Assembly: GCF_008084905.1 (NCBI RefSeq)
Contig: NZ_VSFC01000012.1
Coordinates: 1-64,000, forward strand
Source: Xanthomarina maritima
GTDB taxonomy: Bacteria; Bacteroidota; Bacteroidia; Flavobacteriales; Flavobacteriaceae
Length of the DNA: 64,000 nucleotides
Direction: 5' to 3'
Made by a program: the position numbers and the translations under genes
The notes under the pieces: model-generated
Databases searched by the model: none
What the model saw: the letters and a program-made list of their open reading frames with translations, nothing else
Told to the model about the DNA's origin: nothing
Shown: positions 57,947-64,000 of the stretch, piece after piece
How the letters are laid out: each line of letters starts with the position of its first letter
Position numbering within the stretch: position 1 is the first letter of the stretch

Positions 57947-58819
57947 ATGATATTAATTGTTGACAGTGGTTCTACAAAAAGCGATTGGATTTCTGTGGAT
58001 ATCCAATCTCATCAACAAACAAAAAAAATGCACACAAAAGGTTTAAATCCTGCCATTTTAACTAAAGAAAATCTTTTTAAGATTATTCAAGATAATACAG
58101 AATTAATGGCTTTAAAATCTCAAGTATCTCATGTTTTTTTTTATGGAGCAGGTTGTGGCACTGAAAAACCTAGACTCTTATTAAATAAAGTTTTGCAATC
58201 TATTTTCAAAAAGGCTCAAGTTGAAGTTAAAGAAGATACGTTTGCAGCAGTAAGGGCAACAATAAATCATGAAAAAGAAGCTGCAGTTGTTTGTATCTTA
58301 GGTACAGGTTCTAATTGTAGCTATTTTGATGGTAAAAATCTATTTCAACGTGTTGCATCTTTAGGATATACCATAATGGACGATGCTGCTGGAAATTATT
58401 ATGGCAAACAATTAATTCGTGATTATTATTTTAATCACATGCCAGAAAATCTAAAATCTTCTTTTGCTCAAAAATATAATGTTGAAGCAGACGATATTAA
58501 ATTTAATTTGTATAAACAACCAAATCCAAATGCTTATTTAGCCTCGTTTGCAGAGTTTATGTTTCAAAATAAAGATTCAGAATATATTAAGCTCCTTATA
58601 TTAAAAGGACTTCGAGAATTTTCAAAAAACATGATTTTGCAATTTTCTGAAGAAATAAAAACAGTTCCAGTTCACTTTGCTGGCTCTATTGCTCATTATT
58701 CAAAAGATGAAATTTTAGAAGTAGCAAAAGAGTTTCATTTTAAAGTAGGAAATGTAGTTAGACGTCCTATTGATAGGCTAGTTTCATACCATTTAAATCA
58801 ATTAAGTTCATGGAAATAG
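57947..58819 (+). CDS. BadF/BadG-type ATPase, N-acetylglucosamine kinase-like
   Basis: A 290-residue ASKHA-fold kinase-type protein. The phosphate 1 loop is VDSGSTKSDW with Asp6 and Gly8, GTGSNCSYF near 123-131 is the phosphate 2 loop, and AGSIAHY near 243-249 is the adenosine loop. The closest described group is N-acetylglucosamine kinase/BadF-BcrD ATPase. In Bacteroidetes this gene commonly follows gapA or pfkA, so a glucosamine- or glucose-type sugar kinase feeding glycolysis is likely but unproven. Its last 10 bases overlap the mgsA start. Confidence 0.85.
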   Translation: MILIVDSGSTKSDWISVDIQSHQQTKKMHTKGLNPAILTKENLFKIIQDNTELMALKSQVSHVFFYGAGCGTEKPRLLLNKVLQSIFKKAQVEVKEDTFAAVRATINHEKEAAVVCILGTGSNCSYFDGKNLFQRVASLGYTIMDDAAGNYYGKQLIRDYYFNHMPENLKSSFAQKYNVEADDIKFNLYKQPNPNAYLASFAEFMFQNKDSEYIKLLILKGLREFSKNMILQFSEEIKTVPVHFAGSIAHYSKDEILEVAKEFHFKVGNVVRRPIDRLVSYHLNQLSSWK

Positions 58820-59172
58820 CAATTATTGCGCACGATGGAAAGAAAGTTGAAATGGTTCAGTTTCTAAACGAACATAAAGAGGTGCTTCTTCAAAAAAACA
58901 TGTCTTTAGTATCTACTGGAACTACTGGAAAAAAAGTTAAAAAAGCTGGATTTGAAGTGTTAAGATTACTTTCAGGACCTTTAGGTGGTGATGCACAAAT
59001 TGCTGCTCGTGTAGCTGAGGGTAAATGTAATATGGTTTTATTTTTTAGAGATCCATTAGAAAAACATCCTCACGAGCCAGACGTGTTAATTCTTATGCGT
59101 TTATGCGATGTTCACGATGTGCCCTTGGCAACCAATCCTGCAACTGCTGAACTATTGGTAAACGGATTGTAA
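58810..59172 (+). CDS. mgsA: Methylglyoxal synthase
   Basis: A 120-residue enzyme that converts dihydroxyacetone phosphate to methylglyoxal and phosphate, a bypass of lower glycolysis. The catalytic Asp61 is in SGPLGGDAQI. Asp81, His88 and Asp91 in DPLEKHPHEPD keep the same spacing as Asp91, His98 and Asp101 of E. coli, and STGTTGKK binds phosphate. It is shorter than E. coli MgsA (152) because both ends are trimmed, as in many Bacteroidetes. The start overlaps the previous gene by 10 bases, so it is translationally coupled to it. Confidence 0.93.
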   Translation: MEIAIIAHDGKKVEMVQFLNEHKEVLLQKNMSLVSTGTTGKKVKKAGFEVLRLLSGPLGGDAQIAARVAEGKCNMVLFFRDPLEKHPHEPDVLILMRLCDVHDVPLATNPATAELLVNGL

Positions 59173-62226: not shown

Positions 62227-62248
62227 AAAACAAATACTTAATATGATT

Positions 62249-62279
62249 AAGGTTTAGCTTTATTAAAAAGCTAAACCTT
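62249..62279 (+). terminator. Intrinsic terminator after the HAD lipoprotein
   Basis: A 12-bp stem (AAGGTTTAGCTT at 62249-62260 with AAGCTAAACCTT at 62268-62279) and a 7-base loop, followed by a long T-run. Confidence 0.85.
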
Positions 62280-62288
62280 TTTTTTGTT

Positions 62289-62414
62289 TAAAATGGATTA
62301 AAAATAACTGATATTTAATTTTTAATATTATTAATTATTATTTGTAGTAATAATACACAAAATTATAATAAATTTAAACATACAAAAATATATTTAATGC
62401 TTTAATCCATTTTA
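62289..62414. repeat. Inverted repeat pair of 14 bases
   Basis: TAAAATGGATTAAA at 62289-62302 and its exact reverse complement TTTAATCCATTTTA at 62401-62414 flank about 98 AT-rich bases. It is too far apart for a simple terminator hairpin and has no transposase. A short palindrome GCCAGGCTGGC follows at 62435-62445. Confidence 0.4.
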
Positions 62415-62520
62415 TTTATGAGAAAAGTCTGTTAGCCAGGCTGGCAATAGTATAGAAAACGCAACGCTACAGGTAAAAAAATAATTTTGATAAAAAGCAT
62501 AAATTTGAAAATAAACTAAA

Positions 62521-63189
62521 ATGAAATCAATGAAAATAAAACCATTCATACTTCGAATCCTTTTGTTCAGTATTGGAATCCTTATCATACTGGCATGCAA
62601 AGAAGAGACTCAAGCACAAACTAATGGAATAGCCCATTTCGAGGCTGGACTTAAGGCTGTAGATGCTGACAACATGCCACAGGCGTTTCAGGAATTTTTA
62701 GAGGCAGCTAAAGAGGGACATATCGATTCCCAGTTCAATGTTGCACTCATGTATGAGCAGGGTCTTGGAGTTAGTAAAAATGAAAGCGAAGCGCTTTTTT
62801 GGTATGAAAGTTCTGCTTCTCGAGGAAATTCAGGTGCACAATTTAATCTTGGTGTGCTCTATGAAAATGGGATTGGCACTACCATTAATTTCGCAAAAGC
62901 AAATGAGTGGTATCGTAAGGCTTCAGAACAAGGGGATGGGTTGGCTATTGGCAATCTTGGAATGTTGTATATACGAGGCCAAGGTGTACAAGAGAACAAG
63001 GTTGCTGGTATAGCACTTCTCCTAACATCTGCTGCTATGGATACTTCTCCTGAAAACCATGCAAGGAATAATATTACAGCGACTCGTGGTTTAACTACAG
63101 CGATGATTACTGAAGCCCAAGTTCTTTCAGACGAAATGAATCGTGCTAATAACGTCTTGGTACCACTTGATAACTATTTAAATAAATGA
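62521..63189 (+). CDS. Sel1-repeat lipoprotein
   Basis: A 222-residue lipoprotein: MKSMKIKPFILRILLFSIGILIILAC with Cys26 in the lipobox. About four Sel1-like helical repeats follow (FQEFLEAAKEGHIDSQFNVALMYEQGLGV, then SEALFWYESSASRGNSGAQFNLGVLYENGIG, FAKANEWYRKASEQGDGLAIGNLGMLYIRGQGV, then a degenerate one to the C-terminus). Sel1 repeats are protein-binding scaffolds. Codons such as GGG, CTC and CAG and a more GC-rich look than the rest of the window hint at foreign origin (inference). It sits 3' of the sulfatase and HAD lipoprotein. Confidence 0.85.
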   Translation: MKSMKIKPFILRILLFSIGILIILACKEETQAQTNGIAHFEAGLKAVDADNMPQAFQEFLEAAKEGHIDSQFNVALMYEQGLGVSKNESEALFWYESSASRGNSGAQFNLGVLYENGIGTTINFAKANEWYRKASEQGDGLAIGNLGMLYIRGQGVQENKVAGIALLLTSAAMDTSPENHARNNITATRGLTTAMITEAQVLSDEMNRANNVLVPLDNYLNK

Positions 63190-63257: not shown

Positions 63258-63553
63258 TTTTTATTATAAAACCTATGGTTTTATAACTGATCAGCTGTAA
63301 TAAGTTAACTGTTAGTACATGGCAAAAAACGGCTAGTTCAAATCTTAGATTAATAGCTTCGTGAACTACGATTTTTATTTCAAGCATCCCTTAAAGGTAT
63401 ATTATATAAAATTTTTTATCAAAGCATTTTATGAAGCTAAATAAAAAAAGATGGACATTATTTGTTATAGCCATAGATTGGAAAGTAGTTTATCTTTTGA
63501 AAATTAAAGTAAAAATTAGTTGGATTATTAAATAAATCTCTAAAAAATAAATT
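63258..63553. other. Decayed intergenic DNA, includes a HAD C-terminus-like remnant
   Basis: About 300 bases with no ORF above 20 codons. Within it, 63452-63513 reads in one frame as WTLFVIAIDWKVVYLLKIK. The centre DWKVVY matches the C-terminus DWKVVYPFELTK of the HAD lipoprotein at 61159-62226. The following DNA also matches if one base deletion is allowed after the Tyr codon. The rest of the stretch shows nothing recognisable. Confidence 0.5.
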
Positions 63554-64000
63554 ATAAAGTTTTCTATCCCTTATATTTTATTGGTTGGGTTTATAATAAC
63601 TATTCATACTTATGCTCTAGAAAATAAAACAAATCAAGACGGCAAAACCTCTGTATAACTGTCATAACAAGTGATTGACCCAACTATTTTAGCCTAGCAG
63701 TTACAGTTAGAAGAGTTTGCAATTTTTGATATTGAAGAGCAAGATGGGTTTGCCCAAAATTTTATATTTAGAGGAATTATTCCTTTAAAAAAGGGTTGCT
63801 ATTGCCCTTTCCACAATTAATCCGTGTTATTGCTTTTGTAAATACATCACCTAGTTGAAAAACAGGACTAGGAGATGTCACTTTAAATCAGTTTTTATTC
63901 TAGCTAATAAAGATTGAGGGCAATTTGGAGCAGGTTGGAATCTTCAAATACCAACAGCATCAAACCATGAATTAGGTTCACCTCAATGGCAAATGTATTA
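63554..64000 (+). pseudogene. Decayed outer-membrane transporter-family gene (partial)
   Basis: The frame can be rebuilt from a lost start (ATA at 63554, then KFSIPYILLVGFIITIHTYA, a signal peptide). It goes on through DPTILA and DGFAQNFIFRGIIPLKKG. In the first frame there are stops at 63656-63658, 63665-63667 and 63695-63697. Near 63810 the frame shifts and continues as PQLIRVIAFVNTSPS, stop at 63856-63858, then KTGLGDVTLNQFLF, stop at 63901-63903. A second shift near 63920 restores GQFGAGWNLQIPTASNHELG. The motif order FIFRGIIPLK, P.Q.IRV, KTGLGD and LQIPTA..ELG..QWQ matches the exported 'transporter' (neuromedin-U-like) outer-membrane family. The gene continues beyond the window edge. Confidence 0.7.

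Follow-up and report, generated by a model that had tools for sequence, protein, structure and literature searches.

A very probable pseudogene of an outer-membrane channel-type gene beside an intact paralogue in a sulfatase slot of Xanthomarina maritima

Pseudogenes left by redundancy are an ordinary kind of pseudogene in bacteria. COG4313 proteins are outer-membrane channels of 12 strands that have been implicated in the uptake of hydrophobic molecules, as reported in PMC4493636. Solved members exist for these channels and for the amyloid exporter FapF. We analyzed a stretch of Xanthomarina maritima DNA (the window, 64,000 nucleotides), which forms the start of a contig of 338298 bases (G000:C18); downstream coordinates continue the same numbering. 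The segment from 63554 to ~64296, hereafter psi1, is very probably a pseudogene whose intact form coded for an outer-membrane beta-barrel of the channel type. The features of the locus are listed in Table 1.

Table 1. Genes and gene remnants in the slot and at its two flanks, in contig coordinates
Feature	Position	Strand	Remarks
Left flank of the slot, which we take to be a methylglyoxal synthase-like gene	58810-59172		
Sulfatase gene, intact, 540 aa	59471-61093	+	Pfam PF00884, E 1e-49; 97% identity to its G007 counterpart at this locus
HAD-family gene, intact, 355 aa	61159-62226	+	Pfam PF12710, E 1.8e-10; 84% identity to the G007 gene
Sel1-repeat gene, intact	62521-63189	+	Pfam PF08238, E 1e-26; 77% identity in L114
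Remnant, last ~31 codons of a second HAD gene	63416-63508	+	Profile columns 315-345 of 345
psi1, broken channel-family gene	63554-64000 in the window	+	Runs on to ~64296, past the window end
Intact channel-family gene, 268 aa	64404-65210 (L003 2405-3211)	+	Starts ~107 bases beyond the psi1 end
DUF4268 gene, possibly truncated	65275-65679, region to 65750 (L003 3276-3750)	-	Profile positions 33-137 of 140
psi2, second broken channel gene	65921-66404	+	Stops, frame change, first profile columns not found
Right flank of the slot, presumably a GuaC/IMPDH-like gene	66454-67494		

The earlier note on this DNA had placed five in-frame stops in psi1, and all of them were found at exactly those positions: 63656 (TAA), 63665 (TAA) and 63695 (TAG) in the frame of 63554, and 63856 (TGA) and 63901 (TAG) in the frame of 63556. 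The motifs that had been read, i.e., DPTILA, FIFRGIIPLK, PQLIRV, KTGLGD and LQIPTASNHELGSPQWQ, were each present. Two frame changes were also borne out, at positions that depended slightly on the method. The first, which had been put near 63810, fell at ~63797 in the profile alignment; the second fell at 63886 in the profile alignment or at ~63920, as had been proposed, in many tblastn alignments, and the break count is unchanged whichever position is taken for it. In addition, the segment of psi1 from 63995 to 64108, which corresponds to profile columns 146 to 214, is ~95 bases shorter than the profile expects. A start codon ATA in place of ATG at 63554 is possible and unproven; a stop codon lies directly upstream in frame, and a relative in G012 aligns from its own residue 4 at 63554, with an E-value of 5e-4 that holds for a 1.2-kb stretch only. 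The N-terminal stretch 63554-63787 aligned to this relative across three stops. The G+C content of psi1 was 31.2%, compared with 34.4% in the intact copy and a window mean of 29.9%. Nothing pointed to a usable reading frame, and the proposal that psi1 is a broken member of a family of outer-membrane channel-type proteins was upheld. The motif order is kept across the breaks, as it would be if psi1 were still functional and its translation relied on recoding, i.e., on programmed frameshifts and read-through of the stops. However, five stops of all three kinds and two frame changes lie within less than 450 bases, the middle is shortened, and the eight flanking genes compared show no such breaks; we regard recoding as next to inconceivable.

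Similarity to the family was assessed with a profile of 95 full-length family proteins, which was aligned to the DNA by a method that permits changes of frame. A frameshift-aware search of this type had been suggested, and it gave a single alignment (63701-63995) that spanned both frame changes with a score of 48.4. In 300 dinucleotide shuffles, the mean score was 14.3 and the maximum 24.1; across 126 real stretches of 1 kb, taken from both strands of the window, the maximum was 19.7. With single Pseudomonas proteins, tblastn returned collinear pieces over psi1 from 63677 to 64179, the best case being L010 (63677-63787, 63799-63942, 63921-63992 and 64108-64179). Taken singly, the pieces scored weakly. 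In HMMER, the third piece scored 15.5 bits, whereas the first scored 5.7, which the best of 500 shuffle sets equalled, and the second -0.1; with a profile of Pseudomonas proteins only, the corresponding values were 13.0, -2.3 and 3.3, and the best shuffle reached 2.2. The C-terminal part alone was also weak, as its score was reached by 4 of 500 shuffles. When proteins from 17 neighbourhoods were searched by strict tblastn at the 3-Mb setting, psi1 was unmatched at E 1e-3. These weak single pieces and the empty strict search are what a chance resemblance of AT-rich intergenic DNA to the family would give. However, the joint score lies far outside both the shuffles and the real stretches, the pieces stand in the correct order with single proteins, and the adjoining HAD tail provides separate support; mere chance is a highly improbable account of psi1. 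The similarity to the family runs across the in-frame stops and the frame changes beyond chance, and intact relatives exist, both among the full-length proteins of the profile and as one copy in the same genome.

We also considered whether the gene is truly intact and appears broken through an assembly or sequencing error. The first frame change sits in a run of A then G, which would suit such an error. However, the stops are spread across psi1, bases are missing from its middle relative to the profile, the eight flanking genes of the contig are nearly equal in length to their G007 counterparts, and the genome completeness is 99.98%. With spread breaks and intact flanks, an error was thought very unlikely, as judged from the assembled sequence alone. 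A different reading accepts that the gene is dead and supposes that part of it was kept in another role, e.g., as the promoter or leader of the intact gene downstream. The DNA before that gene aligned with the corresponding upstream stretches of G004 and G007 (from 64271 and 64197, respectively), which overlap the psi1 end. However, the overlap is limited to the last part of psi1, and E-values are inflated in AT-rich DNA (several intergenic matches lay at ~1e-5). A retained leader is unlikely, and a decayed channel-type gene is the reading that we adopt below.

The HAD tail just upstream of psi1, behind the Sel1 gene, had gone unseen in the earlier note. Its profile score was 28.0, and none of 300 shuffles reached it (maximum 18.2). 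The DNA matched the paralogous, second HAD subfamily of congeners (best E 1e-8) and not the intact HAD gene of the window, and the remainder of this second HAD gene is absent. psi1 would once have stood directly behind the HAD gene of which only this tail remains. The psi1 unit lies in an accessory slot bounded by the two flanking genes in Table 1, and this slot also holds the intact sulfatase, HAD and channel genes and the dead psi2. The Sel1-repeat gene adjoins the HAD gene in G001 too. A further HAD remnant in 62227-62520 was considered and rejected, as its score was reached by 54 of 300 shuffles.

The same slot was then compared among seven congeners. It was empty in three of them (G002, G003 and G006), and no channel-gene remnants were found in these three slots. 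G007 carried sulfatase, HAD and channel genes; G004 and G005 carried sulfatase and HAD genes, with further genes in G005; and G001 carried two sulfatases, HAD and Sel1. That is, a channel open reading frame stood at the exact locus in one of the seven congeners, while three had sulfatase and HAD genes and no channel open reading frame. The statement that relatives usually keep the gene in this place was overstated on these counts. At any locus, a family member lay beside or one gene from a HAD gene in all seven congeners (7 of 11 HAD loci); a sulfatase was also nearby at 3 of the 11 HAD loci, and one other locus (G003) was cut by a contig end. Of these seven congener channel proteins, five had themselves contributed to the profile used for the search, and two (L116 and L118) had not. 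As a separate observation, the stretch between the two flanking genes appears as an insertion slot in which differing sulfatase units occur in four congeners and in the genome of the window.

Past the window end, which was out of view for the earlier note, the gene family proved to be still present at this place: the intact copy follows psi1 almost at once, and the second broken copy lies beyond it, so that the single intact channel gene has a dead one on either side. In psi2, the first 102 of 263 profile columns were not found, the frame changes near 66362, and two stops fall in 65921-66376, or four when counted over a slightly longer match. Three intact relatives have 98 invariant residues in common, of which 23 are lost in psi2 and 14 in the intact copy. 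In a comparison of 152 shared codons, the changes found in psi2 alone were distributed over the codon positions as 19/20/32, compared with 9/3/26 for G007 and 11/1/28 for G004; for the latter two counts, psi2 served as one of the two references. The intact paralogue showed a similar distribution to psi2 (20/23/35 over 152 shared codons). Therefore, the codon-position pattern fails to tell dead from live here, because the intact paralogue also evolved fast. Between the intact copy and psi2, the DUF4268 gene may carry a break close to its start, as the likely start peptide sits in another frame; at 143 aa, its open frame falls just short of the range in congeners (145-162 aa), and the break is unsure. 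A further DUF4268 copy, 37% identical, is found on contig C2 of the same genome.

A close intact counterpart of psi1 was not found in the family sample, the phylum sample or the plasmids. The family sample (198 other genomes from 198 genera) gave three weak matches and the phylum sample (394 other genomes) two, all at 30-32% identity; the best match among 34 plasmid records was 41%. In the own genome, no DNA copy of psi1 was found besides itself, apart from one 56-base match. In a scan of genome contigs, 78 of the 80 relatives taken (of 103 confirmed) were titled Pseudomonas, and none was of the phylum of the window. A 26-row tree placed psi2 together with the genes of G007 and G004 (moderate support, 87/90) on a branch of 0.43, compared with 0.058 for the nearest row, G004; four sites supported this grouping, versus one and one for the alternatives. 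The intact gene fell outside that group (moderate support, 81/72). psi1 fell within a larger clade with Pseudomonas, Agrobacterium and the other copies of the window, on a very long branch (1.91) and at a tentative position; 36% of its columns were filled.

The channel copies were presumably redundant, with selection relaxed on two of them. psi2, which groups with the G004 and G007 genes, may have been the resident that died while a diverged paralogue took over, a reading that we consider somewhat less likely than not. It is possible, and on balance rather unlikely, that the slot works as a revolving door, in which a sulfatase unit requires a single outer-membrane channel, paralogues arrive one after another, a newcomer takes over the role and the resident decays. 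On that doubtful scheme, psi1 would be the older corpse and psi2 the younger, flanking the current holder. Elsewhere in the genome (G000:C24, L146 3374-4929), another sulfatase gene carries several frame changes; its longest open piece is 95% identical to the G007:C1 gene, a close relative. Its neighbour in congeners, a HAD gene, is absent here; i.e., a second sulfatase-HAD unit has decayed too. One of the breaks in this sulfatase gene falls within a run of A and might reflect a sequencing error.

psi1 is a real, ordinary pseudogene in a crowded spot, and by itself it is of little weight, as bacteria carry many pseudogenes. Beyond what had been noted before, the locus holds an intact paralogue, a second dead copy and a HAD tail. 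It matters for annotation that the sulfatase unit does have a channel gene, as the intact copy stands next door. The locus also points to a barrel family that has no Pfam model and whose genes neighbour sulfatases in several Bacteroidota as well as on an enterobacterial plasmid. Among eight family proteins, six gave no match to Pfam at E-values up to 10, and two had matches below the cut-off only, none of them to a channel family. The intact copy had no NCBIfam match at E 0.1, and a profile of 30 relatives had no match among PDB sequences at E 1. The family, which is without a Pfam or NCBIfam model (64404-65210; L007-L086), occurs in Bacteroidota, in Pseudomonas and on plasmids, with several members beside sulfatases. 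Members adjoin an arylsulfatase on the Persicobacter plasmid pPP2, an alkyl sulfatase on a Citrobacter plasmid and a sulfatase in G007; in Flammeovirga, an arylsulfatase lies ~2.6 kb away, and the Agrobacterium member has no annotated sulfatase in the 12 kb covered. Given such neighbours and the fold of a relative, the intact protein may provide the neighbouring sulfatase with a passage through the outer membrane for a sulfate ester or for the product of one. The label "neuromedin-U-like", which we take to be a database annotation for such proteins, was given by none of the libraries used. Literature matches listed for neuromedin U with Pseudomonas concerned animal or unrelated subjects only, a query joining neuromedin U, outer membrane and sulfatase had no match, and none of the matches listed for sulfatase, pseudogenes, Flavobacteriaceae and COG4313 named the locus.

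Finally, we compared the family with known systems. An AlphaFold2 model was built from 30 sequences for a Pseudomonas relative with ~43% identity to the intact copy (pLDDT 85.1, pTM 0.77; two of the five models were poor, at 63.0 and 49.5). It consisted mostly of strands, with a signal-like helix at 2-21, a helix at 27-34 and then 14 strand segments. A signal-peptide-like helix with a barrel resembling the solved COG4313 and FapF members was seen for the Pseudomonas-relative model only, and no sequence match to a curated model of a COG4313/FapF-like channel was found. In Foldseek, the best solved matches of this model were FapF (5o68) and then the COG4313 channel Pput2725 (4rl8; TM 0.63, E 1.1e-5). 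The family is similar in length to mature COG4313 channels (270-320 residues; PMC4493636), whereas it lacks a PDB sequence match or an above-cut-off Pfam match. The COG4313 case described in that source lies beside aromatic degradation genes (PMC4493636), whereas sulfatase and HAD genes are the neighbours here. The FapF structures (5o65, 5o67 and 5o68) were the best fold matches to the Pseudomonas-relative model, with TM up to 0.69; however, identity was 12-14% only. As for pseudogenes, psi1 resembles the ordinary products of redundancy in its stops, frame changes and deletions; unlike them, it is one of two dead copies that flank an intact copy in the same slot.
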